A stretch of 47,657 nucleotides of DNA. It comes from Acidimicrobiaceae bacterium. GTDB lineage: Bacteria > Actinomycetota > Acidimicrobiia > Acidimicrobiales > Aldehydirespiratoraceae. The notes under the pieces were generated by a model. It was not told where the DNA came from and did not search any database. It saw nothing but the letters and a program-made list of their open reading frames with translations. This document shows, in pieces, positions 1 through 41,287 of the stretch; positions within the stretch are counted from its first letter, which is position 1; each line of letters starts with the position of its first letter. A program made the position numbers and the translations under genes. The stretch covers positions 8,139-55,795 of the forward strand of contig JAPPJC010000027.1 in the NCBI GenBank assembly GCA_028820455.1. The letters run 5' to 3'.

Positions 1-3000
1 CCCAGGCCACCATTCGGGCTCAAAATTGGTTGGTCGGGGTGCCAAATTTTTCCGGTGGGGGGGGGGGGGGGGTAAAAAACCCCCCCCCCCCCCCCCCCCC
101 GTGATGCCGGGTGTTTTGATCACCGACCACATTTTGGATATTGTTCTAACTTCTCGCAGTATTCGATCATCTTCGTAGAGCCAGAGTTTCGTGAAAGGCC
201 GATACAACACTTCACGAATGCGGGATTCATCAAATACTATTTTTGACTTCTGCTTGAGTGACTGTTTGAGGGATATATGCCATTTTATTGTGCTTAAACT
301 AGTGTTTTTAGTTGCTTCTTCAAGGTTGGTACCATGAGCGACACGTCGTCGTGCATATTCATAGGCGTCAATAAGTTCATTAACTCTTTCCACTAGATCC
401 TCATAGCTGAACGAATACACGTAGGCGTCGCAGCCAGTTGCAACACCTCGTGCATGATCCACTACTAGAGTGTTGTCTCTTTGTTTAGATGAGCCTATCG
501 CACACACCGGCAGTAGGTTCTCGAAAGTGCCATCAGTGAGATTCACCCAGTCATGGTTGTCGTTGACCGGTACGGTTTTCAGCTGGTCACTAGTGACGTC
601 TCCGAGTTGGGCAAGCCATGCGAACTTTTCTTCGCGAGTTGAGTATTCTGGAACTGTTGCGTAGTGAAGCTCAGCGGGAGTGTCGGGGTCTTTGTCGGGG
701 TTGCGGACCAGGACTGTGATTTGGACTCCGTTACGTGAACCCTGTCCAAATACGTTTTGTCCCTCTTTTTGGCGTTCATCGCCGGATTTCATGGCGTCGC
801 CGAGGAGGTTGACGACGTAGATGTCACTGAACTCGTTGCGCAGTGATGCGCGCATACCGATCAATGAGGGGCCGCTAGAGAGTGAATTAGGGTGACTCAT
901 TACAATAATTCCAGGCTTGGACAGGTCATTGTTTGGGTGATCGAGTCTATCAGAGGCCCATCTGATGGCTTGTACGTACAGGTTGGAGGAGCTGGTGCCG
1001 CCGCCGCTACGTTTCTTGATTTCGCGGTGGCGTTTGCCGTAGGTGTCGCGGATGCGCTTCTGAAGTTCTGGATAGGCGAGTTTGGGATTATCATCACCTG
1101 CTGACTTCTGGCCAGCTGACCAGGGCGGATTGGCGATGATTACTTGGATGGGTAGAGCGTCTTGTTGTTTAGCGCGGGCGGTGTTGTAGCTGATGGTGCC
1201 AGTGCCCGGCAATTTGGTTGGGTCATGCTCGAATGTGTCGGTGAGGACTATGCCGCTGAAAGGTTCGTAGCTTCCAGTGCGGTCGCGGTATCCCTCTTCA
1301 ATCTTCAGCGCGGCGAGATAGTAGGCTAGTAGCACAATCTCGTTTGCGTGTATTTCATTGGGGCTGTCGCCTGGGACCAGCGGATTATGCGTATTGATGA
1401 ACTTTCTCTTCAGGTCTTCATCGAAAATGAACGGCTGGCCTTGGCTGTTGTTTTGGGTGAGGAGCCGGTTGATGAATGTGCCTGTACCGGTGAATGGGTC
1501 GAGGATGTGCACTTCTTCGGATGTGAGACCGCGTCCGAACTCTTTGTGTAGCACGGCGTCGACGGATCGGAGGATGAAGTCTACGAGTTCGACGGGTGTG
1601 TAGACGATGCCCAATTTTTTGATTTCTGCGGGCATGGCCTCTTTGAAGAACGATTCATAGACCTCCAACATGATCTTGAGTCGGGCGTCTGAATCAGCAG
1701 CACCTGAGAGGCGGTTGCGGACGCTTTCATAGAATCGATCTAGTTCCACAGTCTCATCACGCAAGTGTATGTCTTGGGATTTGAATTCGTCGAGGAGTTC
1801 GTTGAGGGATTTGGAGATGGGATTGCGATCAGCGAATCCGCTGCCAGCAAACAGTGCTTCGAACACTGGCATCGTCACAACGTGCTGAGCAACCATCACG
1901 GCTAGGTCGCCCGACGGCATGCTAGCACCGATTGTTGCTTCCATTTGCTCGGAGAACTGGTAGAACTGCGCTGCTAGTTCATCGTTGGCTTCTACAGCGG
2001 CGCGGATGTGACCGGTGATGGTGTTTGTGATGCGTGCTACTTCGCGGCCCCAGCGGTCCCAGTATTGACGATCACCGCAGACTTTGACCAGTTGTGACGC
2101 GATGGCATGTTCGAATGGTATACGCTGCTGGATACCGCCTTTGAAGGAACCATCAGATGAGTCATCGCATTCGCATTCGGTGTTAGCCATACCGCAGGTA
2201 TCGCATAGGCCACTCGTCAACACGGTAACCGGTAGCCGTCCTGTGAGGTCAGCAGTGTTGATTTCAACGTCGAGGCGTTCGTCGTGGGAACGCAGTGCTT
2301 TGAGAACTTTCCAGACAGCTTTGAAGCCTGAGCCCGATAGGACCCGGTCATCGCTCAGACTGGCACCCGATGGCACCACCACAGGCAGGATCACGTAGCC
2401 GACCTGCTTGTGCTCGGCTCGGCGCATCACTCGTCCAACGGCTTGGATCACATCCACTTGAGACTGTTTTGGCTCAAGAAAGATCACCGCGTCAAGAGCG
2501 GGAACGTCTATGCCTTCAGTAAGGCAGCGAGCATTGGTAACAATCCGGCAGCCGCCGCTCGGGTCACCTTCTCGAAGCCAAGCGATTGTGTTGGCGCGTT
2601 CAAGAGCATTGTTAGAGCCATCAACATGACGGACCTCGCACTCAAGTAGGTTGACATTACCACCGTCGGTGGTTGTGCGGCCGGACACAGCCGCACTCAC
2701 GGCCTCAACCACCGGGTTCCAGTATCGTTCCACGAGCTGGGATTTACTAATACGGTTAGTGAAAGCAATCGCTCGTTTAGCAGAGTGCTCCGGGTTGACT
2801 CGGCCAGTGATCCGATCTTTGGCTGTGGTGGTAGTCGGATCGGCAAGACCATCCCAACAACCCGCGAAACGCACCGCCTCTTGGATACTGAAAAGACGCT
2901 CGTCATCAATCACAATGTTGTCGTAAGCATCGAGTACCGGATTCTCAGCTACAGCGATGACCAGCACCTTGTAGTCGGTTAGGTGTCCTTCTTCGACAGC

Positions 3001-4275
3001 GTCACCGAAGGACATCCGATACAGTTCTGGGCCGTAGGTTTCTTCGTCGTCCATTGAATACACATCAAAGACCCGATCGGATTGCTTGACCTTGTTCTTA
3101 ACCGTTTCGGTGTAGATGCGTGGTGTAGCAGTCATATACAACCGTTTGTAAGCCCGCACCCGCTCAGGTTTGTGAATGAATGAGAACGGCGTGATGGTGC
3201 GGCTCTTACGCGATGACTTCTTAGATCCAGTGGCCTCGTCGATACCAGTAGTGCGGTGTGCTTCATCACACAGCACAAGATCGAAGGCCTGTGCAGTTCC
3301 GAACAGATTTTTATTGGACTGCGCGTCGGCTATGAGGCTTAGCGATTGGTAGGTGCAAAACACCACCAGCATTGAATCAGGATCTTCGACATTCAACTGT
3401 TGGGATATGCGACTAGGATCGGTTGTTACCGGCATGGCTAGCTCCGACAAAGGGGCATCCTCATCAGTGTTGCCGGCCTTGGTGTCTGAACACACGCCTA
3501 TATAACGGTGTTCGATGTCGGGATTGCGTTGCCTTGCCCATTCACGCATAGTCTGGTTCATCAGCGCGATTGATGGCACTAGGTACAAAACCCTGCCACC
3601 CAGTCCGACCATCTTCTCAGCGATCCACAAAGACACAACAGATTTACCGGTGCCACACGGTAACACAAGACGGCCACGATCATTGTCCGCCAAGCCCTCA
3701 ACGACTTTGCTGACAGCTTCGGTTTGGAATGGTTTAGGAATATGCCGAGGAGTTGGGTCGAACCGCAGCCGCGACGGATCTTCAAGACATTCAGACCAGT
3801 TGACAGGCCATGAATCGAGATCACTACCATATAACACCTCGCAGCGCGGTTCCGCTTTGAGAATCATCGTGCGCGCTTGCAAAGTCACAGGTGCTGTAAC
3901 AGCAAGAAGCCTAGATGAGAAAACCTGGCCGCTAGATGCAGAAATGAACGAGTCAACAGCAGCCTTACTGATTTTTCCACCCGTGTGGGCCTTGGTCTGG
4001 ATCGCGCACAGACCACCACCCCCCGCTTCAGTCTGCTCAGCAACCAAATCAATACCTACGTCACCACCGTAACCGTGGCGTTGACGATCAGGCCACTCCA
4101 TCCACCGCCACACCTTCTTGAAACGCCGAGGACCATACACATCAGGATGCTGCTGGAATGCCCGCTGCATAAGCAGCTCGAACGCCTTACCACGATCCTG
4201 AGGCGAATCATAGCGACGCTCAAGCAGACCAAGAACCCCTGAAAGCTCTGCCTTGTCCTCAGTCGGTACAATCAC
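1..4275 (-). CDS. Type ISP-like single-chain restriction-modification enzyme (Mrr-like nuclease, SF2 helicase, N6-adenine methylase), 3' end outside window
   Basis: Reverse-complement frame from GTG at 4275 reads VIVPTEDKAELSGVLGLLERRYDSPQDRGKAFELLMQ...GGDVGIDLVAEQTEAGGGGLCAIQTKAH (Mrr-like), LVLPCGTGKSVVSLW, LCDEAHRTTG, LYMTATPRIYTE (SF2), HILDPFTGTGTFINRLL and VIIANPPWSAGQ (N6 MTase). No listed ORF covers this frame, consistent with it being open through position 1. Confidence 0.85.
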   Translation of the reverse strand, partial: MIVPTEDKAELSGVLGLLERRYDSPQDRGKAFELLMQRAFQQHPDVYGPRRFKKVWRWMEWPDRQRHGYGGDVGIDLVAEQTEAGGGGLCAIQTKAHTGGKISKAAVDSFISASSGQVFSSRLLAVTAPVTLQARTMILKAEPRCEVLYGSDLDSWPVNWSECLEDPSRLRFDPTPRHIPKPFQTEAVSKVVEGLADNDRGRLVLPCGTGKSVVSLWIAEKMVGLGGRVLYLVPSIALMNQTMREWARQRNPDIEHRYIGVCSDTKAGNTDEDAPLSELAMPVTTDPSRISQQLNVEDPDSMLVVFCTYQSLSLIADAQSNKNLFGTAQAFDLVLCDEAHRTTGIDEATGSKKSSRKSRTITPFSFIHKPERVRAYKRLYMTATPRIYTETVKNKVKQSDRVFDVYSMDDEETYGPELYRMSFGDAVEEGHLTDYKVLVIAVAENPVLDAYDNIVIDDERLFSIQEAVRFAGCWDGLADPTTTTAKDRITGRVNPEHSAKRAIAFTNRISKSQLVERYWNPVVEAVSAAVSGRTTTDGGNVNLLECEVRHVDGSNNALERANTIAWLREGDPSGGCRIVTNARCLTEGIDVPALDAVIFLEPKQSQVDVIQAVGRVMRRAEHKQVGYVILPVVVPSGASLSDDRVLSGSGFKAVWKVLKALRSHDERLDVEINTADLTGRLPVTVLTSGLCDTCGMANTECECDDSSDGSFKGGIQQRIPFEHAIASQLVKVCGDRQYWDRWGREVARITNTITGHIRAAVEANDELAAQFYQFSEQMEATIGASMPSGDLAVMVAQHVVTMPVFEALFAGSGFADRNPISKSLNELLDEFKSQDIHLRDETVELDRFYESVRNRLSGAADSDARLKIMLEVYESFFKEAMPAEIKKLGIVYTPVELVDFILRSVDAVLHKEFGRGLTSEEVHILDPFTGTGTFINRLLTQNNSQGQPFIFDEDLKRKFINTHNPLVPGDSPNEIHANEIVLLAYYLAALKIEEGYRDRTGSYEPFSGIVLTDTFEHDPTKLPGTGTISYNTARAKQQDALPIQVIIANPPWSAGQKSAGDDNPKLAYPELQKRIRDTYGKRHREIKKRSGGGTSSSNLYVQAIRWASDRLDHPNNDLSKPGIIVMSHPNSLSSGPSLIGMRASLRNEFSDIYVVNLLGDAMKSGDERQKEGQNVFGQGSRNGVQITVLVRNPDKDPDTPAELHYATVPEYSTREEKFAWLAQLGDVTSDQLKTVPVNDNHDWVNLTDGTFENLLPVCAIGSSKQRDNTLVVDHARGVATGCDAYVYSFSYEDLVERVNELIDAYEYARRRVAHGTNLEEATKNTSLSTIKWHISLKQSLKQKSKIVFDESRIREVLYRPFTKLWLYEDDRILREVRTISKMWSVIKTPGITGGGGGGGFLPPPPPHRKNLAPRPTNFEPEWWPG
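57..100. repeat. G16 / TAAAAAA / C21 homopolymer pair
   Basis: Direct reading: G at 57-72, TAAAAAA at 73-79, C at 80-100. Confidence 0.95.
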
Positions 4276-4479: not shown

Positions 4480-5442
4480 TTCACACATCACTGGCTATCA
4501 AACAGAAGAACTCGTCTTCGTTGATGACGCGAATCGAGTTTCCCTGCTCTTTGAATGAAGGGCCTTTTTATACTTAGAGGTCTGATGACCATTTGCGTAT
4601 CCAACAACTAGATAGTCTGTCTTACCGCTTACCGATTCCACAGGTTTCGCACCGACGTCAACAGCCAACTGGAAGGCTTCACGCCGCGGCATCGACGTCA
4701 ACTTGCCCGTGAACACCACCTTCCTGCCGAATAACGCTCCCTCGGGGTCTGGTGTCCCCATGGGTGTGAAATCTTTGGCAGTGAAACTAGAAGACCATGA
4801 CGACTCCGAGGACGCGCTCGTCTGTGACAAGTCGGCATTAGAGAACGGCTGGTAGCCACTAGAATCATAATAGCCGAGCCGGTATCCATGCTTATCAAGC
4901 AGCTCTTCGTGTAAGAAACTGGACCGGTATGCAAGTTCAACCCATATACGCCCCGCTGCTTCCGCGTCCGACAGAGCATCGTGATGCGTAAGCGGAATAT
5001 TGAACTTCTGCGCTACAGCTGTGAGGCCCCATGATTGCATACCTGGTAGCTCGGACTGTGTCAGATGCCAATGCACGCAAACTGGAAAGGCTCAAGCGGG
5101 TATTCGTGGTGTTCTACACTTTTCCATAAGACCGAGATATCAAAAGCAGCACTATGAGCTATCAACAAACGATCCTCTATCATCGGGCATCGGGACCACT
5201 TGATCCCATACATATGGAAACTCTGGTGCTTCACAGGTGTCTGACGGCTTGATACCGTGGATGCTCATATTCCGAGTATAGTACTTGTTGCCAGGTGGGC
5301 GGATCAACAACTTCCGTTTCGTGATCAGTAAGCCATCCTCAAAAACAACCACCCCAACAGCACACACCGAACTGCGTTTGCTTGTGGCACTCTCGAAGTC
5401 GATCTCAACGAATGAGTCCTCAAGCAGTTTGCCTCCCAGCAT
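4480..5442 (-). pseudogene. DnaQ-like 3'-5' exonuclease with C-terminal BRCT domain, disrupted by about three frameshifts
   Basis: SFVEIDFESATSKRSSVCAVGVVVFEDG (5442 frame), then RLLIAHSAAFDISVLWKSVEHHEYPLEPFQFAC in a second frame, then HLTQSELPGMQSWGLTAVAQKFNIPLTHHDALSDAEAAGRI...ALFGRKVVFTGKLTSMPRREAFQLAVDVGAKPVESVSGKTDYLVVG (BRCT) in a third, then KEQGNSIRVINEDEFFCLI in another frame. Confidence 0.75.
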
Positions 5443-5641
5443 GAAGATATACTATTCTCTTGTCCGTGAGAGTGTCATCGTCCGTAACGGACTCAAGGGT
5501 CTCGGTGATGATTTCAGCGGGGTTGACCGCCACACCGAACAACCGGCTGGCGATGTCCGCGACCGCTACGTTGTGATCCCCGTCAGTTCCCTCCGAAGCC
5601 ATGGTCGCTGAAGTGCCGATACAGAGAAGGTTTGCCAGCAC
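5420..5641 (-). pseudogene. Fragment of DEAD/DEAH helicase (MrfA/DrmA-like, DUF1998-associated style)
   Basis: LLCIGTSATMASEGTDGDHNVAVADIASRLFGVAVNPAEIITETLESVTDDDTL; motif III-like GTSATMAS; truncated at both ends. Confidence 0.5.
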
Positions 5642-5717
5642 TCATAATGAATATTGTGGTTTGTATGTTTTTTGGATTCTGTGACCGGGGTTCTGGTCTG
5701 ACCCATTTACCGGCTGG
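5641..5717 (+). repeat. 77-bp direct repeat, copy A
   Basis: CTCATAATGAATATTGTGGTTTGTATGTTTTTTGGATTCTGTGACCGGGGTTCTGGTCTGACCCATTTACCGGCTGG; 75/77 identical to 9936-10012. Confidence 0.95.
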
Positions 5718-5867
5718 CACTCAGACTAACACAGAGATGGCTTGTTTTAGGTCATCATCCAGGAGTGGTGTTGCAGTCTCTGGTGGGTGGCTCTTGCATC
5801 TTGATCGTTCGATGTCAAAGTGTTTCTCAGAAGAGGTTGTGGGAGGTAGGGTTGGTAGCTTGCAGGG

Positions 5868-6443
5868 TCAGGCTTGGCGTGTGTTGCGGGCGGTTTCGGC
5901 GGCGACTTGTTTTTGTACTCCGGTGGTGTTCCAACGGAATTGTGCCATTTGTGTGGTTACTCCGAACTTTTTGGCTATCTGTTTGATTGTTGCGCCACAG
6001 CGCGCCTCTATGAGCAAAGTAGGCCGGGGGAGTAGCAGAGTGCCTCCGAAAGCTGTTGCTTCTTCTTCTTGGTCGGGTTGACAGGTGCGGAACGGTATGT
6101 CATTTAGGTATTGGATCTCTGTCAGGTCATGATCAAGGATGATGTGTGCTAGTTCGTGGGCTATGTCGCTTCTGCGTCGTGGGCGGGTTCTGAGCGGATT
6201 GTAGACGATGACGTGACGACCGTTGATCTCGAAGGTACAAGCCGAGAAAGCGTATGCCTGGATACATTCGATTTCTTCAAGTCTTTCAATTTCTACTAGG
6301 TCGTCAGCAGAGATGATTCGTACACCGAGGTTGTCGGCTATTGCTTTTAGATCAAGTGATGCAGATCGGGTGATGCCTGCGTTCTCTCGAAGCTTCCGTG
6401 CTTCGCGTTCGGCTTTTGCTTTGAATCCGCGGGGAAGTGTCAC
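5868..6443 (-). CDS. ImmA/IrrE-type zinc metallopeptidase (CapP-like candidate)
   Basis: DIAHELAHIILDH (HExxH) plus the usual ImmA/IrrE layout (EEATAFGGTLLLP); directly downstream of the XRE gene. Confidence 0.85.
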   Translation of the reverse strand: MTLPRGFKAKAEREARKLRENAGITRSASLDLKAIADNLGVRIISADDLVEIERLEEIECIQAYAFSACTFEINGRHVIVYNPLRTRPRRRSDIAHELAHIILDHDLTEIQYLNDIPFRTCQPDQEEEATAFGGTLLLPRPTLLIEARCGATIKQIAKKFGVTTQMAQFRWNTTGVQKQVAAETARNTRQA

Positions 6444-6983
6444 TCACAGGGCCCCTTCAGCGTCAAGTTCTAGAAGATGGTTTTGCATGTCATCTAGAAG
6501 CTGCCCTAAACGCTGTGGAACTCCAGGGCGTAGTGTAGCCGCAGCGCGCAGATGGCATGCCACAGTCACTGGCGCGGATGGTTTGCGTGCAAGGGCGGCA
6601 TACATGTCTCGTACAACTGTTGCAATGCTCGAAGCAGCCTCCGGTGCGAGCAGAGGGTCGGCTTGCAGGTGCGTCGCGACAACTTCTGGAGTTGTTGTCT
6701 GTCGGGGAGCACTGGTCATGAAGAAAGTCTGAGGTGGAACATGCAACCATGAGCACAGACGTAGGAATGTTGTGAGATCCGGTTGGCCTCCAGCTTCGAC
6801 ACGTGACAACGTCATGAAACTGATGTTCGCTGTTTCTGCTGCCCGTCGTATTGACAAGCCTGCGGACGTGCGTCGTTCTTTCACAGCTTCTGCTAGGGCG
6901 TCGACGTTTAGATGAGCAATGTTTGATTTCTCGGATGCCGTTTCATTAGCCTCAGGTTCCGATGGTGGTGAAAACGAAACCAT
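6444..6983 (-). CDS. XRE-family HTH transcriptional regulator (CapH-like candidate)
   Basis: LAEAVKERRTSAGLSIRRAAETANISFMTLSRVEAGGQPDLTTFLRLCSWL; abuts the ImmA gene; divergent from the CD-NTase gene. Confidence 0.85.
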   Translation of the reverse strand: MVSFSPPSEPEANETASEKSNIAHLNVDALAEAVKERRTSAGLSIRRAAETANISFMTLSRVEAGGQPDLTTFLRLCSWLHVPPQTFFMTSAPRQTTTPEVVATHLQADPLLAPEAASSIATVVRDMYAALARKPSAPVTVACHLRAAATLRPGVPQRLGQLLDDMQNHLLELDAEGAL

Positions 6984-7131
6984 GTCACAATTGTATCACC
7001 AACGAACCGATGTTAGTTGCATATGACAGAAATTTTTGACATACTACACTGTTAGTGCAACTTTGCTGATACAATATATTCGAGTTTATCAATACATGAT
7101 GCCCAGTTTGTGAAAGGATTTTCAGAGAACA
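6984..7131. promoter_or_regulatory. Divergent intergenic region with nested inverted repeats
   Basis: TTGTATCA (6991-6998) pairs with TGATACAA (7067-7074); AGTTGCA (7015-7021) pairs with TGCAACT (7056-7062); TTGACA at 7036-7041. Confidence 0.45.
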
Positions 7132-8202
7132 ATGTATGCATACACAATTTTAGACCAGATCCGCAAACAAGTAGCAGCAAGACCTGAATCTTTGCGTGAG
7201 GCACGTGAGAGAAGAGATCGGGTTCTTAGAACGGCATCGAGTTTCAACGGAGTTCTTCGTACCTATAAGGCGGGATCTCTGGCTACCCGTTTCACGAATC
7301 GCCCAGTATCGGACGCAGACGCGGGTGTAGTCATGGACAGGCGTACTCTGCCCGACCTCGGGCCCGACGGCGAGGGTGAATTGCCTGCCGAGCTTGTGAA
7401 CAAGATCCGCCTCCACATACGTCCCCAGCTAGCCGCACAGTACTCCAACGTGCGGGTGGAGCGGATGAAACGCGGATTGCTGATAAGGTTCGGTCAACTG
7501 CTGACAAGTGGGGAGGACCCTAGTGTTGATCTCGTGGTTGCTCTCAACCGAGCTGTTGATGACGCCTTGTGGATCCCCAATCTTGATAAGAACCGATGGG
7601 ATCCCAGCCATCCCGAGAAACACGTGCAACTTTTTACTTCTAGCACAGAAAAACACAGGCGCACGCGACGTCATGTCGTGCGGTTAGCCAAAGCACAGGT
7701 TCAACAGTTCGACAAACCCCACCTCTGCTCGTTTAATATAGCAGCTCTCGCGTGGGAATGTATCCAGTCTGCTGAGCGTATTGACCTAGCACTACTGCGT
7801 TTCTTCGAGTACTCGGCTACTGAACTGGCGAAGCACTTCACCAAGGATCCGGCAGGAGTGAGCGACTCTATCCGAGTTGATGACCGAGAGTTGGCGGTAA
7901 AACGTTTACGGCGCACAGCGGACGGACTGAGACTCGCTATTGATGCTGGCAACAATGAAGACAAGGTGAGAGAAGTGCTTGCAACGCAAGGTGTGTTTTG
8001 GAAGCTTTTACAGCCACAAAATGATAATCGGAACAATGGTGTGCTCCATGGCAGTCACACCAACAACGTGGTAGAAGCTGTACGGACAGGTGGGATAGTT
8101 TCAGTCGCGGCTAGCGGAACACTTGCTACAGGCAAGTCTTCAAGAGGTGCAACACCTCTGAAATTGACGCGAGCATACGGAGGATTCCGTGCCTATGGTT
8201 AG
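7132..8202 (+). CDS. CD-NTase (cGAS/DncV-like nucleotidyltransferase) of a CBASS-like system
   Basis: AGSLATRFTNRPVSDADAGVVMD (GS...DxD), PSVDLVVAL (third acid), IPNLDKNRWDPSHPEKH; protein ends ...GGFRAYG with C-terminal Gly. Confidence 0.8.
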   Translation: MYAYTILDQIRKQVAARPESLREARERRDRVLRTASSFNGVLRTYKAGSLATRFTNRPVSDADAGVVMDRRTLPDLGPDGEGELPAELVNKIRLHIRPQLAAQYSNVRVERMKRGLLIRFGQLLTSGEDPSVDLVVALNRAVDDALWIPNLDKNRWDPSHPEKHVQLFTSSTEKHRRTRRHVVRLAKAQVQQFDKPHLCSFNIAALAWECIQSAERIDLALLRFFEYSATELAKHFTKDPAGVSDSIRVDDRELAVKRLRRTADGLRLAIDAGNNEDKVREVLATQGVFWKLLQPQNDNRNNGVLHGSHTNNVVEAVRTGGIVSVAASGTLATGKSSRGATPLKLTRAYGGFRAYG

Positions 8203-8587
8203 GTGGGAAAACCCTGGACCCTGGTATGGTCGCTTCCGTGACCGGCTACGATTTGAAGTACCGGCACGCACGAAGATCCCTGGATTGCGATCCCGGCGTC
8301 GACCTCAGGGACGCGGCTGGCAATATCTACTTTCGGTAAAACCACCTGGCTGTCCAACCATTAAGGTTCGCATTGATTATCTGCTGCCAAATCCCCATGT
8401 GCCACACGTCATCGTCAATGGGCCCACGGATTCTCCACACCGCTACCATGATGGCACTCTCTGTATGTGGTACCCGCAAGATCCTGTAGACCGTCGCTGG
8501 ACTTTCTCAGACGGACTCCTCCACTTGATCGGCCTCATCCAAGTCCATCTCATCCGAGAGCACCTCTGGCGTGAAACAGGTAAATGA
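8189..8587 (+). CDS. Stand-alone E2-like conjugation protein (short type II CBASS Cap2-like)
   Basis: HRYHDGTLCMWYPQDPVDRRWTFSDGLLHLIGLIQVHLIREHLWRETGK: E2-like H...GTLC-W active-site context; overlaps the CD-NTase end. Confidence 0.7.
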   Translation: MPMVRWENPGPWYGRFRDRLRFEVPARTKIPGLRSRRRPQGRGWQYLLSVKPPGCPTIKVRIDYLLPNPHVPHVIVNGPTDSPHRYHDGTLCMWYPQDPVDRRWTFSDGLLHLIGLIQVHLIREHLWRETGK

Positions 8588-9774
8588 CCCGGAGACGAGG
8601 CACCGCATCACGAGAACAAAAAATCATGAATACGTTCTTCTTGGCGCATGCTATACCCTCCTATGTGACCGCAGCCCTGGTTGCAGCATTGATCTCGGGC
8701 ACAGTCACGATCATTGGGTATTGGCAGACCTCCCGGTTGAAGCGACAGGATAGACAGCGTCAATTACTAGCGCGTGCTCTCAAATCGGTGGCGGAGTATC
8801 GCGAGTTTGCCTACAAGATTCGACGCCGGTCACACGAAAACGACCGGAATGTGATAACTGACGCTTTATCCGAGGTGCAGGCACAATTAAACCTGCACAT
8901 GGCAACCCTCGAAATCGAAGCACCGCGGGTCGCTACCCACTACAAACACCTCGTTGCTGAAACAAAACGAATCGTCGGCCCCCAGATAGCAGCAGGTTGG
9001 GATCAAGCACCACCAACTACCGACGACGATATGCACGTCCGCGATGTTGATCTAACCGAACTTGAGACACCAAACGCAGCGTTCATCAACGCCGCCAGGA
9101 AACACTTGCACGGCAGGTTATGGAGTTTTTGGCAGTACAGGCGTATACCGGTGCGGTGCCACCCTGACAAGCCTGCGTCACAATCTCTTCAACAAGCCAA
9201 CTCACAAAAACTTAACTCTACTGGAAAGGTGATAGAATGCGGCAATGGACTCACTTCCGATCCAATGAAAGATGACAAAACAAATAATAGCTCGAATTGG
9301 GAGTTGATTCGTATATTGTTCGGATGGTCAGGCGTAGCAGTGTTTGTCATCACATCCATACTAGGAATTTGCTTTTCGATGTTGGATCAAGAACGTTTAT
9401 TGAATGCGTTACGGGATCTGATCACGCCTGCTACTGTGTTATTTAGCTCTACTCTTGTTGTCAGTACTTGGGTTGCAGGTTCACCCCGTTCACCTCAGCC
9501 CGGTGAAATCGCAAGAGATACTCGTGATCTATTTGGTACCGTAGTGGTATTCTCATATTTTGCAGTGGCAGGCATAATCATTGTGATTGGTTTACAAGCT
9601 CTACCTTCAACTACACCTATTTGGATGTTGCACCTTTTGGGTGGGTTGGCATTGGGGTTGATGGGACTAGTCATGGTTGGACTCGTGAAACTTCTTGACA
9701 AAACTCATGATTCTGTTTCAATCTGTTTGCGACGAACGGGGAATGATAGCACATCTGGGACTGTCGATAGTTAG
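8584..9774 (+). CDS. Membrane protein, candidate CBASS effector (one N-terminal TM, helical cytoplasmic region, about four C-terminal TMs)
   Basis: ATGA overlap with the E2 gene; ALVAALISGTVTIIGYW then charged LKRQDRQRQLLARALKSVAEYREFAYKIRRR; hydrophobic blocks GVAVFVITSILGICF, VVVFSYFAVAGIIIVIGL, MLHLLGGLALGLMGLVMVGLV. Confidence 0.65.
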   Translation: MTRRRGTASREQKIMNTFFLAHAIPSYVTAALVAALISGTVTIIGYWQTSRLKRQDRQRQLLARALKSVAEYREFAYKIRRRSHENDRNVITDALSEVQAQLNLHMATLEIEAPRVATHYKHLVAETKRIVGPQIAAGWDQAPPTTDDDMHVRDVDLTELETPNAAFINAARKHLHGRLWSFWQYRRIPVRCHPDKPASQSLQQANSQKLNSTGKVIECGNGLTSDPMKDDKTNNSSNWELIRILFGWSGVAVFVITSILGICFSMLDQERLLNALRDLITPATVLFSSTLVVSTWVAGSPRSPQPGEIARDTRDLFGTVVVFSYFAVAGIIIVIGLQALPSTTPIWMLHLLGGLALGLMGLVMVGLVKLLDKTHDSVSICLRRTGNDSTSGTVDS

Positions 9775-9935
9775 ACCTGATCATTTACGATAAATCAAGG
9801 GGGAACGTGTCTGGTGTACAGGTTTGTATAGCAGGTTAAACTGTCTCGTCATAGCCGGATTGGATGTTTCCAGTACACCCGATTTTCTATTGAGCCAAAC
9901 GGTTCTCGCTTTGATTGTTCGCGAGATTTCTGGTG

Positions 9936-10012
9936 CTCATAATGAATATTGTGGTTTGTATGTTTTTTGGATTCTGTGACTGGGGTTCTGGTCTGACCCA
10001 TTTACTGGCTGG
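9936..10012 (+). repeat. 77-bp direct repeat, copy B
   Basis: Same 77 bp as 5641-5717 with two C-to-T differences, same orientation. Confidence 0.95.
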
Positions 10013-10205
10013 TTTTTTATGCCTTGGAAGAGATCTGTCGGCCAGTATCCCGGTCATCAGGAAAGGTTCCCAGCCAGGGCGTCAAATGTGGCCTGATAGA
10101 AGCCTTAGCGCATATTCTGCACCTTGAGTGCCAGATATGTGACCCCTCAACTAAGATGGCTCGGGTTTGGAAGCTATTGGCCAGTCTAAAAAAGAGAGCC
10201 ATTAC

Positions 10206-13034: not shown

Positions 13035-13900
13035 TATGCAACCTCCTCCGTTGCGTATGTAACTACTTTGTTTTTCCCGGACAGGTCGAGGGTGAACTTG
13101 AACTTCCTGGTGGGGATGGTTAAGTCGTTGATGCCAGCAAGCATGGGCCGAGCCAGCGATGGCGGCATCAGGGCACCCCATACGCCGTAGTGAACTTGCC
13201 TTGTCTCGTGCTCATCTGGTCTGGCATGTTGCAGTCCCCACGCTGCGAGAATCTCCACCACAGGTGACAACTCTACTTTCTGCTTATGTTCATTGGGAGA
13301 GTAGCCGACGTCAATAGCCGTCCAAGCTCCCCTGGGATCGAAGTTGAAACTCCCGCCGAATGGTGTACACACATCGAACGGACGTAGAATTAGGTCTTCT
13401 CTACAGTTGCGCAGGATTCCTCTAACCCCCAAGGACTTATTTTTTGTTTTGCCTTGAATCAAGTCGCAGGTTATGGAATATGCTGATCGATTCCCAGCAT
13501 AGAGTTTGAATGGATTGCGGGATGATTCATCAGTCCAATGATCAATATCGATGGCCTCCCCACTGTCGTCCTGCAAACGAATAGGTAGAGCCATCTTTTT
13601 CGCTTTGGGCCCTGGGAAGGTTTCTGTAGGAACAGGAGGATCTGCGTCGCTTACCTTACCATCGTATCCATTGGGCACCAGTTGCTGAATGTCAGCTCTC
13701 TCCAAGAACCCCAACGTCTTTTCGATGGGGCTGATGCTACCGTCAGATCTCAGCTTGAACTGGACGTCCTCTGGCTTGCTCCAATCGAATCCACCCTCGG
13801 CGTTACCGCACAGGACGTCCGCTGCTTCCAGGAATCCCATGCAGGCGAATACCTGGCCTGGGTTGAATATGTCCACGGGTATAGAGGAGTCCGCCATCAA
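13034..13900 (-). CDS. csb3: Csb3-like small Cas8-type subunit of type I-G (I-U)
   Basis: FNPGQVFACMGFLEAADVLCGNAEGGFDW; overlaps the cas3 stop (ATGA) and the csb1 start (TAATG). Confidence 0.7.
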   Translation of the reverse strand: MMADSSIPVDIFNPGQVFACMGFLEAADVLCGNAEGGFDWSKPEDVQFKLRSDGSISPIEKTLGFLERADIQQLVPNGYDGKVSDADPPVPTETFPGPKAKKMALPIRLQDDSGEAIDIDHWTDESSRNPFKLYAGNRSAYSITCDLIQGKTKNKSLGVRGILRNCREDLILRPFDVCTPFGGSFNFDPRGAWTAIDVGYSPNEHKQKVELSPVVEILAAWGLQHARPDEHETRQVHYGVWGALMPPSLARPMLAGINDLTIPTRKFKFTLDLSGKNKVVTYATEEVA

Positions 13901-16710
13901 GTCGTCTTCCGCTCATTGTTCTTGCCGTCGCGATGCTCGTTTTTTCCTGATGCCTGCCAGTCAGCTGAGCGGAGCATGGATTCCCACCAAGCCAGCCCCC
14001 AAGGGCCCCAGTGTTTCTGGAGCCGAGCGAAGCGCATGGCGACTTCCCGTGCTCTTTCCTCCAACACCGAAGGCGGGGCGTCCTCGCAGCCGTCCACCCG
14101 GATTACAGGCCTCGCGAAGCCGTGGTGTGACGCCACCAGATGCAGAGCGAGGTCACGAAGGTCGTCGGGCAGTGCGACGAGAGAAGCGTCGCGCTCTGCG
14201 TGCGCGAGCGAGCCGAACTCGTGACGATAGCCACCGAGTAGCCGGTAGTTGATAGGCCCACGAGTCTTCGCGTAGATGCCGCCATCCTGTGGGGCATTGA
14301 AGGCCCGCTGCCAACGCTGGGAGCGTTTGCCCTCATCGTGTAGCATGGCTGCTATTGCTAGCATCTCTGTGTAGTCGTTCGGGAGACCGATCTTCTGCGC
14401 GATAGCCCGTACGCATTCCTCTGCGTATTGTTGATGCTCTTCAAGCAGCTGGGGCGGTCCCGCGCCTGTGGATCGGTCGTCCTCCATGGAGGCGTCGCCT
14501 CGCCACTTGTAAACGGCCAGCCACTGGCGTTCTTCTCCGTCTTCGGACAACTCAGTGGCGAAGCGGAAGCACTGACGCCACCCGGCAGCTGGGGTAGGAA
14601 TATCAACGTCTCCCTGTTCATCGTCGGTTGCATTCTCCTTGCGCACACTGAAGCGGGTAACGGGCACACCGTCGTTCGAGGTCAGCCATTCGCTTCCGTC
14701 GTCCGCTGTACGAGGAGGTGAATTCTCCGTGTTGTTCAGACGTCCGCCTTCACTCAGACCGGCTATTCGCGCGTCCACAACGAGGGTCGCTCCGGCAAGG
14801 ACGCTCTTTATCTCTTTCTTCTTCTTCCCCCTGGTTTTCGTGTCAAGCCTGCTGACATCGAAATCCTCGAGAGAGAACGTGGTCTTCATCTCTCCGGCGG
14901 CGTTGAGGACGATAGTCACCGTATCATTCGCAGCCTTTGATTGACTATCCTTCTCATCACTCGATGCCTTCAGCAGCGCAGTGGCGCGCTTTTGCATCCA
15001 TGTGAACACTTCGCTCGTATATGTTTCCAGCTTTTCGCTCATATGGGGTGCCGCGGCCTCGAAGTAGTCCTCGATTTCCTTCTTGGATGTGGGACTCTCG
15101 CCTATTCTCATAGGCAGGTGTTTTCGCCATACGACCGTGGTCTGTGGCGGATCTTCGTCCCAACCTCTGAGCCAAGGCTGTACATCGGGACGTCCAGTAT
15201 GCTTTTTGAGCCAGGTCATGGACCATGCGTCGAGCAGTGCTCTGGACAGCGCGGGATGGAGAGGCGGCTTGGTGGACGCGTCGTCCAATACCTGTTTCAG
15301 CACCGCGTCAGTTGTGGCCCGTTCCCTGAGTGAGCGAATGACTTCCGTGCTTGCATCGAATCTCCCGTCCTCTTCAGGCAGAAGCTTGAGTGCTTTCAAT
15401 TGAGTGTTCTCGGAGTTCTGTTCGTTATGCACTACTGTCACACTGGCGCAACCCTCACCCCTTCGATTGACTCTGCCCAGCCGTTGGACCATGCGCTCCC
15501 AGGCTACTAGGTCACAGACCATGTGGTCAGCGTCGAGATCGACACCAACCTCCCCGGCGGACGTTGCGAATACGAAAGCCGGACGTTGGGCTTCCAGCCC
15601 TGCATCGGAGAGCAGACCAGGACGCATCTGCCGTATGCCAGTCTCAGGCTCCTCTTCCCAGTCAGGTATAAAACCGCGCTCCCTCAGCCACTTCGCTGCT
15701 TCTTCTCGTTCGTACACCCGCCGCCCGCCAACGAACAACTCTGTGTCCACCTTACACGATGTGATGCCCCGTTTCCTATTGCCCTTCGCCCATTTATTCA
15801 CGGTAGCTCTAGCTTTCTCAGCGTCCCTCGGCTTGTCGCAGAATACGATGATCCGTTTGGCAGACCTGCCATTCTCCGTAAGTTCCCAGGCATGGTGGGC
15901 AAGGGTCTCAGACAACTTTCTCGGATCCGATAGAGATTCGAGCCTGAGTCGTTTCGTTGCGTGGAGACGCTGCTTCGCTACTTCATGCTCTAAATCCTCT
16001 GGTGTCAGACCGAAGGGTTTGTCACCGTTCGAGTGCGCCGTAGCCGTCAGGGTCATCAGACGGAAAGGCGGAATGAGTTCTGCTAGACCGTTTTGCGGTC
16101 CAAATGTGGATGCGCCTATAGCTATCGCTTTGAGGAGCTTCTCGAACGGCGGTACAAGGTGAGCCTCGTCGAGCACAACGAGGACGTCCGAACCGAGGAG
16201 TCCAGCCTGGTAGGGTCGCATCTTGGGTGTGGTGCCGTAGCCCTCAAACAGGAGCCGTGAGCCGATCATGTCCACGGTGCCTACGATGATGGCAGGCAGG
16301 GTTGGGTCCTTGAGCCACTCCCTGTTGTCGATATGCTGACCGCGAAGGGTGGAGATGGGCAGTGGGCTGGATAATCCAAGTGCTGACTTGAATTCTGGGT
16401 TCTGGTTGACGTAGTGCCTGAGCAGCAACGCAACATCTGTGGATTGATCGACAACAGCCCGACGATCAACCACGTACACCAATCTTCGGGGTAGGTCGGC
16501 ACCGAGTGCCCGCGCTATCAACCATATCGCCATCACGGAGGTCTTGCCTAGGCCCGTCGGAATGTCAAGATGGCCCGGTATCTTCCCCTGAGAGAAGCAC
16601 CGCAACAACTTTCGCTGCCATGGGAAGGGCGTGTCACTGTTAGGTAGGCCGAGTGCCTCACTCAGCCATCGCTCACCATCTGTCCATGTGTAGCTCTGGG
16701 TGATTCTCAT
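13897..16710 (-). CDS. cas3: Cas3 helicase with C-terminal HD nuclease domain (type I-G/I-U)
   Basis: DIPTGLGKTSVMAIWLIARAL, VVLDEAHL, TLTATAH, ...LAIAAMLHDEGKRSQRWQRAFN (HD). Confidence 0.9.
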   Translation of the reverse strand: MRITQSYTWTDGERWLSEALGLPNSDTPFPWQRKLLRCFSQGKIPGHLDIPTGLGKTSVMAIWLIARALGADLPRRLVYVVDRRAVVDQSTDVALLLRHYVNQNPEFKSALGLSSPLPISTLRGQHIDNREWLKDPTLPAIIVGTVDMIGSRLLFEGYGTTPKMRPYQAGLLGSDVLVVLDEAHLVPPFEKLLKAIAIGASTFGPQNGLAELIPPFRLMTLTATAHSNGDKPFGLTPEDLEHEVAKQRLHATKRLRLESLSDPRKLSETLAHHAWELTENGRSAKRIIVFCDKPRDAEKARATVNKWAKGNRKRGITSCKVDTELFVGGRRVYEREEAAKWLRERGFIPDWEEEPETGIRQMRPGLLSDAGLEAQRPAFVFATSAGEVGVDLDADHMVCDLVAWERMVQRLGRVNRRGEGCASVTVVHNEQNSENTQLKALKLLPEEDGRFDASTEVIRSLRERATTDAVLKQVLDDASTKPPLHPALSRALLDAWSMTWLKKHTGRPDVQPWLRGWDEDPPQTTVVWRKHLPMRIGESPTSKKEIEDYFEAAAPHMSEKLETYTSEVFTWMQKRATALLKASSDEKDSQSKAANDTVTIVLNAAGEMKTTFSLEDFDVSRLDTKTRGKKKKEIKSVLAGATLVVDARIAGLSEGGRLNNTENSPPRTADDGSEWLTSNDGVPVTRFSVRKENATDDEQGDVDIPTPAAGWRQCFRFATELSEDGEERQWLAVYKWRGDASMEDDRSTGAGPPQLLEEHQQYAEECVRAIAQKIGLPNDYTEMLAIAAMLHDEGKRSQRWQRAFNAPQDGGIYAKTRGPINYRLLGGYRHEFGSLAHAERDASLVALPDDLRDLALHLVASHHGFARPVIRVDGCEDAPPSVLEERAREVAMRFARLQKHWGPWGLAWWESMLRSADWQASGKNEHRDGKNNERKTT

Positions 16711-24907: not shown

Positions 24908-27900
24908 TCATAGCTTTGGAGGTTTGCGTTGGGCGGGGGTGGGGGTTGGGAGATCTTTGGCCGGGATCAAGGGACCTGAGACGATCTTCTCTAAGAGTTC
25001 GGCGGCTTTGGGGGTGACTTCAATTGTGTGTTCGAGGATGGACAGGACGAGTAGGAGTTCTTTGGTTTGGGTCCAGCGGGTGGGACGGATGTAGTCGAGG
25101 GGGCTGGATTTTATGCCTTTGCGCTTTTTCATTCTGTAGCCGAGCCAGGAGCGGAGGACTCTGAGTCCGGAGACCTCGAAGTTCCAGGCTTCCTCACTGA
25201 CTGGAGCGAAGGTTCCGGTGCCTACTGTCAGAGTTCTCGACGTGCGATCATAGGTGCGGTCTTTGGAGTTGTTGGGCATGACTTCTACTGGACGGATCTT
25301 TTTTGCTTGTCCTTCGGGAAGTCGGAGCTGACCCTCGGGGGTGAAACGTTCACCCCAGGTGTGCCACCATAGGAGGTCACGACCCAGCTTGATTGCCTGC
25401 TGGAACAGATCAGGGTTAGCGGTAATTGGAATATGGATTGGGCCTGCGGTTTCGGCTAGCTCTTCGTTGAAGCGGTCAGTAAAAGCAGAGGTTCCGCCTA
25501 AAGCGTAGACGTAGGCAAGTAGATCTTCGGCTGTGATCTCGGTGTTTAGTCGTTCACTAAGGGTAGTCAGCAGGTTTTGAGTGATGTTTGGCTCTCTGCT
25601 GTGTATGTTGCGATAATATGGCATAACATTGGCCCCGCGATTCGAGAAGTGATTGCGATCAGGCACGTAAGGTGTGACGGTAAGGACAGGACCTTGGTTG
25701 AACTTGGATGCTATTAGCGTGGTGAGGAACACCTGGTTTGGTCCGCGAATCTTCCATAAAGCAGGTCGCGGCCTGTCGGCTAGACGGTTGTCTGCGATCA
25801 CCCATTGCCGGTCAAAGCTTCGGTAACCGTATTGTTCAATGCCTTCATGTGGAGCATCACGGTCAAGATCATGAAGAGGTGTTAATCTAGGAGGGCCACC
25901 CAATAGTGGCTTCACCTTGCTATGTGTGTTGCGATCTCCGGTTTCTTTTAGAAGGACTCGACGGTTACGAGGAACTTCTTCTAAGAAGGCTCGCCAGCGT
26001 TTGTCCAGCACAGGTTTAGTCTCAGCTATTGGCCATGTCCTTTGATGCTGGCACCCGGAGTGTCCCCATGGCAATAGTTCAGTGATTTTGGGCCAGTCGT
26101 GGTATTGGTTTGTGCTTCGGGGCACTATGTGGTCCAGATGTTCGCCGGGTATCTGTTCATGCACATCGTTAAGGTCGGTTTGTGCCAGACGAGTGAGTTT
26201 CTCGCTACGTGTGCCAGATACTTTCAGATACCGGACAACGCAGTCTCCAGTATTCTTCTGACTAGTGCGAACTCCTACTCCGATGGTCACGGGGGTTTGG
26301 ATGTCGAAGATGTTGTCCTCTTTGTGGGCTCCTCGGCCTTCGCCCCCCAGATCTACAATCCACAACTCGTCGAAGGCATTTCTCAACAGGTGGCGTACTC
26401 CGCCCATGGAGATGCCTTCAAGGTACGAAGATGCGGTTATGAAGGCCACTATTCCAGGGCCGGGTGGTAGTTCTGTGGTTTGCCAGACAGCCCAGCACCA
26501 GAAGTAGACGTAATCGTTATACACGTTCGTAAGGTGACCGCCGAGACCCGCTTCCTTCATTGGTTCGGTTATGGCGTTGATCAGCGGGTCGATCCCAGCA
26601 GTGCCATGACGAACTACTCCGCCTTTGCGTTTGCTTGTGTCTCCGACCGAGCGGTGTTCACGGTTGTACGGTGGGTTCCCGATCACGACAGTAAACCGCT
26701 CGTGCTCTTTCAGTTTGACCGCTCTTGTGCCTTCTTCGGCTACGGGGTTGCTCATGGTGGCGAGCTGGCCTTGGCGGGCTGTGTGTTCCAGGGTGTCGGT
26801 GAGCAGAATTTGCATAGTACCTTCGTTGGCTCCAGTATGGTATAGCTCTAGAGCGACTTTGAGGTGGGCGATGGCGTAGGGGGCTAGCATCAGCTCGAAG
26901 GCGTGCATGGACGGTAGCAGGTGGTCACGTAGATGTCGGGGCCATTCTTGGAGTGTGCCGGATTCTAGGAACGATTTGCGGGCTTGGCGTAGCCATTCGA
27001 CTAGGAATGTGCCGGTGCCAGTGGCTGGGTCGATCATCGACACGAAGGGTTTGCGGGGGTCAATCCCCTCAGGGATGTCGAAACCGTTGCGTTCGGCTAC
27101 TTCCTGCCACGATTCAGTGTCGGCTATACCCATGCGCAGACCGAAGCGGGATCGTAGTACTTCGTCGACGGCACGTACGATGAATTCAACGGCGGGTTGT
27201 GGGGTGTAGAACGCGCCAGCATCGGTGCGCATCTCGCGGTCATATTTCTTGAGGAATTCCTCGTAGAAGTGAATGATTGGATCACCGCCCTTGGTGGTGG
27301 AACCGATCTGGTCAAGGATGGCTTCGACGTTAGTCTCGCGCAGGTCGGCTACGAGCTGTGGTAGGTCGCTGCCAGGCAGGTCAAGAGAGACTGCTTCGTC
27401 GTGGACTTGCTCAAATAACGCTTCCAGGAACGGATTTGCCAGTGGTACTGTCGAGAAGATCGGTGACGATCCGAAGTCCTGCGGGTTGGTGACTCGGCTG
27501 CTGAGCATCCCGTATACGAGCGTTTGGGCACACATGTCGGCGAAACTCTTGGAAGTCACGTCACTGACCAGTCGGGTACGGATCTCTTGCATCAGATCCA
27601 AGAATGGGCCCGATCCGTTCTCAGACTCAAGTGCCTCATGAATCTGATCCCGCAAGTCCTGAGCGGTTTTCGCCATTCGATCAGCCAGACGAGCCGAGTC
27701 ATTTATCGCCTGACCGACCGGCAATTTAAATGCTTTCCACCATGCCCCACGCCACGACTCGGTATCGCTGGTGTCTTCAGGCCATTCCAAGCATGGCAAC
27801 AACTCTTCACTAAGCCGTTTGAGATGGTGAGTGGAAGTATGAGCAGGCCGCCATGTGAGTGAACGGAATTCCGCTGTTTGTGGGTTCTCGCCTTTGAAAG

Positions 27901-28354
27901 CCAACAGATGCAACTCCACATCTTTGGCCTTTCCGGTGATCACGAAAAACAGTAGATCACTTAGTGCCCACGTCCGCCTACTGACAGGACCGGCGGAAGC
28001 CCGCTTTTTGGTAACAAGGGCCCGTAGTAAGCGTCTTATCGGTGTGTAGCGCAGTCTTGTCCCCTTGAACTCCAAGAAAAACACACCCCAGGGTTGGTTG
28101 ACGGTCAGGGGTCGCATCTGTTGAAACCGCTCGAGATCTTTGAGTCGATCTGTGGGTATACCCAGTTCGGCTGGATCCCAGTCATAAGTAACCACTGTGA
28201 GGTCGTCATCCTCAAGGTAAGGGAGATCAGGCTGATCTAGATCCAAAGGCCAACCCTGGTCGTCAACTAGGTATTGGAACAGTTGCGCGAAAGTGCGTAT
28301 TCGGCGCATCCTTTCGACATTATCAGCCGAATCAGTTAGCGGGTTGCGGGTCAT
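24908..28354 (-). CDS. N6-adenine DNA methyltransferase with ISP-type C-terminal domain
   Basis: DAGAFYTPQPAVEFIVRAVDEVL ... SMIDPATGTGTFLVEWLRQA ... TVVIGNPPYNREHRS. Confidence 0.85.
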   Translation of the reverse strand: MTRNPLTDSADNVERMRRIRTFAQLFQYLVDDQGWPLDLDQPDLPYLEDDDLTVVTYDWDPAELGIPTDRLKDLERFQQMRPLTVNQPWGVFFLEFKGTRLRYTPIRRLLRALVTKKRASAGPVSRRTWALSDLLFFVITGKAKDVELHLLAFKGENPQTAEFRSLTWRPAHTSTHHLKRLSEELLPCLEWPEDTSDTESWRGAWWKAFKLPVGQAINDSARLADRMAKTAQDLRDQIHEALESENGSGPFLDLMQEIRTRLVSDVTSKSFADMCAQTLVYGMLSSRVTNPQDFGSSPIFSTVPLANPFLEALFEQVHDEAVSLDLPGSDLPQLVADLRETNVEAILDQIGSTTKGGDPIIHFYEEFLKKYDREMRTDAGAFYTPQPAVEFIVRAVDEVLRSRFGLRMGIADTESWQEVAERNGFDIPEGIDPRKPFVSMIDPATGTGTFLVEWLRQARKSFLESGTLQEWPRHLRDHLLPSMHAFELMLAPYAIAHLKVALELYHTGANEGTMQILLTDTLEHTARQGQLATMSNPVAEEGTRAVKLKEHERFTVVIGNPPYNREHRSVGDTSKRKGGVVRHGTAGIDPLINAITEPMKEAGLGGHLTNVYNDYVYFWCWAVWQTTELPPGPGIVAFITASSYLEGISMGGVRHLLRNAFDELWIVDLGGEGRGAHKEDNIFDIQTPVTIGVGVRTSQKNTGDCVVRYLKVSGTRSEKLTRLAQTDLNDVHEQIPGEHLDHIVPRSTNQYHDWPKITELLPWGHSGCQHQRTWPIAETKPVLDKRWRAFLEEVPRNRRVLLKETGDRNTHSKVKPLLGGPPRLTPLHDLDRDAPHEGIEQYGYRSFDRQWVIADNRLADRPRPALWKIRGPNQVFLTTLIASKFNQGPVLTVTPYVPDRNHFSNRGANVMPYYRNIHSREPNITQNLLTTLSERLNTEITAEDLLAYVYALGGTSAFTDRFNEELAETAGPIHIPITANPDLFQQAIKLGRDLLWWHTWGERFTPEGQLRLPEGQAKKIRPVEVMPNNSKDRTYDRTSRTLTVGTGTFAPVSEEAWNFEVSGLRVLRSWLGYRMKKRKGIKSSPLDYIRPTRWTQTKELLLVLSILEHTIEVTPKAAELLEKIVSGPLIPAKDLPTPTPAQRKPPKL

Positions 28355-31400: not shown

Positions 31401-31951
31401 TCGAACCAACCCTGCAACTGAGCGACCTCCCGACCGCTTTGCACCTGGATGTTCAACTCCACATTACGAGTAAGCCCAGCTCTGGTGAAATTACTGGAAC
31501 CGACCAGTGCCTGGGCACCAACCACATCGAACTTCGCGTGAGTGATATAAGCCTTAGCGTGGAACTTGTCACGCCGGTACACCCGGCACTCTATCCGCCC
31601 CACAGCGATGGCATCCACCAACGCCTCCACCCCCTCCAAAAACGGATTCGCATCCTTTTCGTCCTCCAGGCTACCGTCGAGGCGGTCAACCCTGCGCCGC
31701 AACGCCTGTGTGAACGCGACCCGAGTGCGCAGCGACACCTCATCACCCATCAGCAGGCGGATCCGTTTGAGCTGCTGCCACTTACCGTCAAGAGCCAACA
31801 ACGCCCCGATCTCGAAGAATCCCGTAGCGATGTCAAACGACTCCGCTAGGTCGCTCCACTGGCGTAGGTATTCCAAACCGGTCCAACCCGACACACTGTT
31901 GTCAACGATGAACAGATCACCACCACCTGTCGTACTCACACTAAAAACCAT
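28415..31951 (-). CDS. PLD-nuclease-SNF2 helicase fusion protein
   Basis: RRDKFHAKAYITHAKFDVVGAQALVGSSNFTRAGL (HxK...N PLD motif); GGAFLCDGVGLGKTFVGLMLIERLV; VIIDEAHHFRN; VFMLTATPVNN; LVNYDLHWNPVRLMQRIGRVDRR. Confidence 0.85.
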   Translation of the reverse strand: MVFSVSTTGGGDLFIVDNSVSGWTGLEYLRQWSDLAESFDIATGFFEIGALLALDGKWQQLKRIRLLMGDEVSLRTRVAFTQALRRRVDRLDGSLEDEKDANPFLEGVEALVDAIAVGRIECRVYRRDKFHAKAYITHAKFDVVGAQALVGSSNFTRAGLTRNVELNIQVQSGREVAQLQGWFDTHWAAAEDVTEDVLRTIVRHTEQYPPFTVYAKALHEFFRGRELTAGEWDESRSRMFAHLDRYQQEAYWSLMKIARRYGGAFLCDGVGLGKTFVGLMLIERLVLHENKRVVLFAPKAAREGVWEPHLRRWLPHIGGVGGGEDFSSLSVFSHTDLSRGSDFPERFQRITDLADAVIIDEAHHFRNRGSRGDRNTGEDTGGIRDRRSRYWRLYDMLDGSARPKLVFMLTATPVNNRLADFRHMAELFTRGDDAYFARSLGVNNLSSHFSVMERNLRSTSKPDTKQNGHNQAKEADTKTGKRNLRGSHNNDAEPAPAHAPDPALGSTGSGKSTTLASSAPAQGSEDGTQPEGGVSAFAEGMTPQARQALAEDEVFAALVVQRSRSYAKKSQIQERGASTAFPDRKPPWVAEYSIRSSYQGVLDVFERAFRRENPLFSLAVYYPLAYYVGPDDINPVEENRQRQVVGLIRTMFLKRFESSVYAFETSLDRLMRKLLAFVEVHSEPGAEQDRYDAWKRRNGTAINFRPGRQFKLDAGRAKKNNAAGGNNGDTKAGRKADENVTTSTGYAVGNTDDDTGSRGYAVGNTDENETDADEDVIPPELLEAVTELSRDEYDVAAILDKTFEDLDEIASFLDAVSCLTPQQDDKARKLIRLLTSKELRDRKVLVFTEFADTARYVESRLRAAGVEGVVRIDGGTNVDRAEVIRRFSPYYNGSSTAELAAEGLNEIRVLVSTDVLSEGLNLQDATRLVNYDLHWNPVRLMQRIGRVDRRMSPEIETRLVADHPEAATDRGTICFWNFLPPDGLERILKLYKKVAGKTLLISLTLGIEGRKLLRPDDTYDPLREFNVTYEGTRTAVEEMHLEYQALLKQHPGLTEQLDGLPSSVFSGRRKLAKGTRGVFFCYSLPALDVDSRRFTLEAGPTRWYLYDLSEDTILESPGEIINSIRCRPKTPRRCNTSRKTLKELRDKVRYHIRDTYLKRVNAPMDAPKPKLRCWMEMN
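29652..29719. repeat. In-frame 42-bp period repeat (26-bp identical core) in the helicase linker
   Basis: TCGTCGGTGTTACCGACTGCGTAACC at 29652 and 29694; encodes GYAVGNTD twice. Confidence 0.85.
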
Positions 31952-40020: not shown

Positions 40021-40426
40021 CCAGCACAAAATAACGCGACAGCTTCTAAGATGGCTCGGGTTTGGAAGTTGTTGATATCAGTGAAGAGGTTTTGGGGCCG
40101 TCAACCCAACATCCTACAAATTCGCGCAGAACCCGAAAATGGGTCAGCGGCCAAAGAAGCACACCGTGCTGATGAGTTGGCTGTGATAACCGCAGACGTT
40201 GTATCCGGGTTGAGGGGGGGTAGTGGGGTGATCCCGATGGTTCACTTGATGTGTCTGTAGAACGATGTGAGATGATCGTTCATTCGGCTGCGCTACTTGT
40301 GCATTGTTTTCTATCAGGCGGGGTAAGACGTGCATAAAGCGTTCTGGAACACGAAGGAGGCAATCCGTTACGGTAGGATGCTGTGATCACCACAGCGATG
40401 CCATTGTATGTGCCGACGTCCTGGGA

Positions 40427-40669: not shown

Positions 40670-40883
40670 ACTTATGCAAGAAGTCTAAGTGTTAACCTGA
40701 TCATCCGATTGCGATGCAAGACAAGCAAGAAAATCTTCAGTGCTAGCATGGAAATGGCTTTTGTCTTCAGATGAAGCAGATACAAGGGCCGACTGATGAT
40801 GAAGTTGAACAGGCAGTGCTCAAACAGCCGATGTATGGTCGTGTGGGTGTTGACAGGATCCGGATGATTCTCGTTGCTTTGGA

Positions 40884-41275: not shown

Positions 41276-41287
41276 CATACCTGACAC

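Follow-up and report, generated by a model that had tools for sequence, protein, structure and literature searches.

The closest described systems include CapH/CapP of Thauera and of the B. cereus type II CBASS, in which an HTH repressor (CapH) and an IrrE-family HExxH peptidase (CapP) lie beside the immune genes. In B. cereus the pair is located upstream of a type II CBASS (PMC11153139), and E2-only systems are discussed in the same source. In the cases studied, CapP is activated by single-stranded DNA and cleaves CapH (PMC13373217; PMC13273310); the domains of the solved CapP are peptidase, HTH and GAF (PMC13273310). Local CapH/CapP pairs are already recognised as controllers of diverse systems (PMC13373217). 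The CD-NTases of operons with Cap2/Cap3 end in Gly or Ala, the residue that is needed for conjugation (PMC10097602). The same combination of an M78 peptidase with an XRE repressor constitutes IrrE/PprI-DdrO of Deinococcus, which serves a global regulon.

The locus described here belongs to a draft genome (2.4 Mb in 84 contigs) of an Acidimicrobiaceae bacterium. By the window we mean the whole analysed stretch of 47,657 nucleotides; the module occupies a small part of it, between two direct repeats. Our reading, to which we assign a probability of about 0.8, is that the module is a type II-short CBASS controlled by a switch of the CapH/CapP type, and that the repeats are dispersed copies through which the module could be lost. 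The features concerned are as follows.

4498-5442, minus strand: frameshifted exonuclease/BRCT gene (BRCT by Pfam, exonuclease judged from the sequence)
5420-5641, minus strand: truncated DEAD/DEAH helicase fragment, which ends at the left repeat and is up to 67% identical to plasmid helicases
5641-5717, plus strand: left direct repeat, a truncated copy that has only the initial 77 bp of a dispersed repeat
5868-6443, minus strand: CapP-like M78 (IrrE-type) peptidase, 191 aa (Pfam Peptidase_M78, 8e-19; PADLOC capP, 1e-14)
6444-6983, minus strand: CapH-like XRE repressor, 179 aa (Pfam HTH_3, 1.6e-7)
6989-7002, plus strand: inverted counterpart of a motif, close to where capH starts, AATTGTATCACCAA, to be compared with TTGCTGATACAATA at 7063-7076
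7054-7073, minus strand: candidate operator/promoter motif TGTATCAGCAAAGTTGCACT, common to the regions upstream of capH at four other loci
7132-8202, plus strand: CD-NTase, 356 aa (PADLOC Cyclase, 4.7e-100; alignment)
8189-8587, plus strand: E2-only conjugating enzyme, Cap2-like without E1 (PADLOC E2, 9.1e-34; alignment)
8584-9774, plus strand: membrane effector, 396 aa (PADLOC “1TM” CBASS effector, 3e-27; alignment; hydropathy)
8584-9225, plus strand: first part of the effector, one TM helix and a soluble helical part
9226-9774, plus strand: C-terminal orphan four-TM extension of the effector (predicted helices, hydropathy)
9936-10012, plus strand: right direct repeat, 77 bp with which a longer copy begins

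A sequence-only reading of this DNA had described XRE and HExxH peptidase genes divergent from CD-NTase, E2-like and membrane-protein genes, and had presented the whole as a CBASS-like module with CapH/CapP-style regulators. The layout is borne out by Pfam and PADLOC, and every gene call was accepted in the HMM check. Judging by its gene content, the operon is an E2-only (type II-short) CBASS, a known kind of anti-phage suicide system, because an E2 is present while E1 and JAB are absent (no ORF for either was found between the repeats). The active-site residues of the CD-NTase (GS 48-49, D61/D63 and D133) are invariant in the five aligned sequences, i.e., that of the window and four relatives. 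Its C-terminus is ...GGFRAYG, and the four aligned relatives also end in Gly or Ala. The E2 has Cys92 in LCMW, and the Cys of LC[MI]W is invariant across the alignment; the terminal glycine of the CD-NTase and this invariant cysteine match the requirements of conjugation. The cdn-E2-1TM core occurs in the same gene order at about ten other actinobacterial loci, including Rhodococcus, Streptomyces and Clavibacter plasmids; no CD-NTase was found in viral contigs. The window thus shares with other type II-short CBASS the three-gene operon, the CD-NTase ending in Gly/Ala, the catalytic cysteine of E2 and a membrane effector. It differs from them in the extra orphan four-TM half of the effector and in the CapH/CapP-like regulators.

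Where the ends of the effectors of related cdn-E2-1TM loci are clear, these proteins have about 130-250 aa, against 396 aa in the window. The four-TM half has a lower G+C content (44% vs 53%), and searches of PADLOC, of plasmids and of 296 genomes of the class gave no relative of it. It is an unexplained part of the effector and is worth a structure. A fold search for CapH and the effector was given up, the single-sequence structure predictions being too poor (mean pLDDT 41 and 48).

The XRE-M78 pair is CapH/CapP-like in its sequence features: an HTH repressor and an HExxH peptidase adjoin an immune operon. The peptidase has HELAH at 96-100, the loop Cys121 and Glu126. Its family profile matches the solved CapP 7t5t (E = 1e-9, a remote similarity) and IrrE structures; that of the repressor reaches DdrO structures and the HTH structure 7t5u. 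The profiles therefore match both structures of the Deinococcus pair; unlike it, the window pair is local and lies beside one operon. The cysteine switch of CapP is a cysteine in the loop that separates HExxH from the third zinc ligand. A loop cysteine is present in all of the 11 capH-linked peptidases aligned, but the spacing of Cys121 differs from that of C229 in VapB52. The capP profile of PADLOC was matched over 4-155 of its 242 positions only, and the window protein ends at residue 191, after an HTH-like part. Since the C-terminal GAF domain is absent, we call the peptidase CapP-like, short form; for the same reason its sensing may differ from that of the solved CapP, and a GAF domain is possibly not required of every CapP. 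Remote similarity to 7t5t, the length of 191 aa without GAF and the other spacing of the loop cysteine separate it from the described CapP proteins.

The motif TGTATCAGCAAAGTTGCACT of the divergent intergenic region is found on the same strand at all four other loci with a close capH, the genes on the far side being different. Two of these loci (L056 and L057) count as about one, since they are close relatives. Four of the five loci have the motif 64-67 bp from the capH start, and one has it at 102 bp (in 25-mer coordinates). In a star alignment of 200-bp regions the best 20-mer scored 45/60, whereas 300 dinucleotide shuffles gave 36.0 +/- 1.2 with a maximum of 39. We consider the motif a likely operator on this conservation; it may also be a promoter element, alone or besides the operator function. 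Promoter predictions were no better than chance. More distant CapH families do not have the 20-bp motif.

The system would then work as follows. At rest, CapH dimers would sit on the DNA between the divergent genes, probably with 7054-7073 as their operator, and hold cdn-E2-effector expression down. Upon phage attack or DNA damage, single-stranded DNA would activate the M78 peptidase, CapH would be cleaved and transcription released, as with other pairs. By analogy with other type II systems, the E2 would bind the last glycine of the CD-NTase as a thioester and conjugate this enzyme, thereby priming cyclic-nucleotide synthesis. The nucleotide would open or assemble the membrane effector, and the cell would die before phage maturation. 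All these functional steps are carried over from studied relatives; the lack of GAF in the peptidase, the loop cysteine spacing unlike that of VapB52, the unexplained four-TM extension of the effector, the chance-level promoter predictions and the alternative role of the motif as a promoter element are points against the model.

It could be argued that the XRE-M78 pair is an independent element, of the toxin-antitoxin or phage ImmR/ImmA type, which neighbours the CBASS without controlling it. The family is indeed found beside unrelated gene sets, and related regulators also serve ICEs (PMC10233336). Close CapH/CapP relatives in the same order, with CapP 57-68% identical, adjoin other systems: a CBASS of CD-NTase, E1-E2, JAB and TIR-SAVED (L059), a small cluster with ThiF and a ubiquitin-like appearance (L055), and a methylase with a PLD-helicase (L056 and L057). 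The same comparison shows that several of these loci adjoin known or likely defence operons, another CBASS among them, and in the window the pair is divergent from the operon across one shared intergenic region with a conserved motif, both of which speak against independence. We regard it as quite unlikely and retain control of the operon by the pair as the preferred reading.

The reverse situation is also observed. In none of the other CBASS-core loci read does the close CapH/CapP type of the window occur. Three of them have, downstream of cdn-E2-1TM, a sigma-70-region-4 protein, a protein of about 215 aa and a 330-aa M78 peptidase with a Cys-rich C-terminus (L020 2909-5141, L021 2635-4912, L022 3645-5886); the sigma-70-region-4 assignment is by a Pfam match in L021 and by similarity in L020 and L022. 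This three-gene set is possibly a different, undescribed CBASS controller. Elsewhere, one core locus has an M78 peptidase of the 330-aa type upstream, one has a distant CapP-like ORF and one another HExxH ORF; no recognised controller was seen in the rest of the CBASS-core loci read. One core accompanied by several regulators, and one regulator family beside several systems, imply that cores and controllers recombine. It is tempting to go further and to propose that CapH-CapP with its operator is a portable control cassette, exchanged among E2-only CBASS, TIR-SAVED CBASS, ubiquitin-like clusters and methylase-helicase pairs, with dispersed repeats as crossover points and 1TM+4TM as a new two-part effector; we consider this combined proposal doubtful. 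What these loci show cleanly is that one immune core, cdn-E2-1TM, occurs with several regulators unrelated to one another, and that members of a single regulator family precede unrelated immune operons with the candidate operator kept. A single reporter would thus suffice to test whether “controllers of adjacent pathways” are swappable.

The direct repeats reported at both ends of the module are confirmed. They have the same orientation, 75 of 77 nucleotides are identical, the spacing is 4295 bp, and a BLAST comparison of the two (E = 7e-32 in the 2.4-Mb genome) is far beyond chance. Positions 46 and 71 of the repeat are mismatched, which leaves 45 bp as the longest exact run. Both belong to a repeat family dispersed in the genome. 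Of the two, the right copy extends further: about 163 bp of it are common to a copy on contig C67, with homology to about 10098. Further copies are on C67 (163 bp at 85%) and C25 (122 bp at 86%), with a weak 67-bp match on C8. All strong copies have the same first base and ragged opposite ends. The left and right copies are 97% identical to each other and 86-90% identical to the others; as the most similar pair in the family, they probably arose in one event. The pair probably records a recombination or duplication at the time when the module settled between the broken helicase and the cas operon. Searches of plasmids, viral or phage-type and other genome collections gave no match to the repeat, or one chance 20-mer. 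An RNA element was considered and dismissed, as there was neither an Rfam match nor a significant or unusual fold. The repeat may possibly encode the C-terminus of a transposase: a 50-aa translation found IS5-family transposases alone, at E = 1, and matched none of the Pfam models.

The sequence-only reading had further proposed that the unit moves, or is lost, as a 4.3-kb cassette by means of these repeats. In this form the module would be a mobile cassette with the 77-bp repeats as attachment or exchange sites, served by a recombinase in trans or by homologous recombination. Direct repeats at non-coding edges, the 45-bp exact run and the particular closeness of the left and right copies would fit such an explanation. 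So would the sporadic occurrence of the module, which follows from the lack of the repeat in 99 relatives (by sequence search) and of a detectable CD-NTase relative in 388 of 396 genomes of the order. Integrase-borne defence islands with att repeats likewise have direct repeats at both ends; the module, by contrast, has no integrase, its repeats are dispersed in the genome and they are unequal in length. The interval contains five genes and no further separate ORF, hence no recombinase or transposase gene. That reading had itself named copies at many unrelated loci as evidence to the contrary, and such copies exist on a small scale (C67, C25 and, weakly, C8); in the 3-kb loci around the C67 and C25 copies the neighbouring genes, identified by inspection, have no CBASS link. 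The helicase is not resumed across the module. The suggested search of relatives gave no site with a single repeat: the 99 relatives are without the repeat, and csb2 of the right flank is absent from the one other same-genus genome compared and from the rest of the family set, so these genomes offer no site for comparison. We therefore consider a mobile cassette unlikely and the case for repeat-driven mobility of the module weak.

It is fairly probable that the repeats are passive, i.e., that a decayed insertion-sequence end or another dispersed repeat flanks the module by chance, one copy having been truncated by a later deletion. At least two and probably three additional copies, which share their first end and stop at varying points, the decayed genes on the left and the lack of an RNA family or unusual fold agree with this. 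The closeness of the left and right copies agrees less well, as it favours a recent event shared by the two, and the similarity to IS5-family transposases, the one protein match, falls short of significance. A 45-bp exact run is sufficient in principle for homologous recombination. Loss of the module by this route across the repeats is possible, and the preferred reading, a CapH/CapP-controlled type II-short CBASS between dispersed copies, includes it.

As for the flanks, the left repeat does abut a truncated helicase gene, as had been noted. The left flank is decaying, since the exonuclease/BRCT gene is frameshifted and the helicase is cut. No continuation of the helicase was found beyond the right repeat. 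A clean insertion into the helicase gene was accordingly rejected: a search next to the right repeat did not recover its first 260 residues, and other matches to them in the same genome are weak and lie on contigs without a known repeat copy. Two differences between the repeats, and exact runs of at most 45 bp, make a misassembly unlikely. The right neighbour of the module is a type I-G cas operon (PADLOC).

Several minor observations concern the surrounding island. A second CapH/CapP-like pair lies just upstream of the window (L025, contig C75, 2740-3732 within 592-3732), and diverges from a ThiF (E1-like) gene and from another, small gene, maybe an E2; counting the pair of the module, this kind of controller accompanies two modules of the island. 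Two type IIG restriction-methylation genes belong to the same defence island (1-4275 and, on the minus strand, 24908-28354). The ORF at 40820-41287 on the minus strand resembles the N-terminus of the Cas3 encoded at 13897-16710 and is apparently a truncated duplicate. A 29-bp stretch with a AAGATGGCTCGGGTTTGGAAG core occurs nearly identically (93%) beside the right repeat at 10151-10179 and in an intergenic position at 40046-40074. The PLD-helicase of the window (28415-31951) is 52% identical over 1154 aa to one at L024 2499-5748, which is about 1.7 kb from a CD-NTase relative in another family; PLD-helicase and CD-NTase kinds thus share an island twice.
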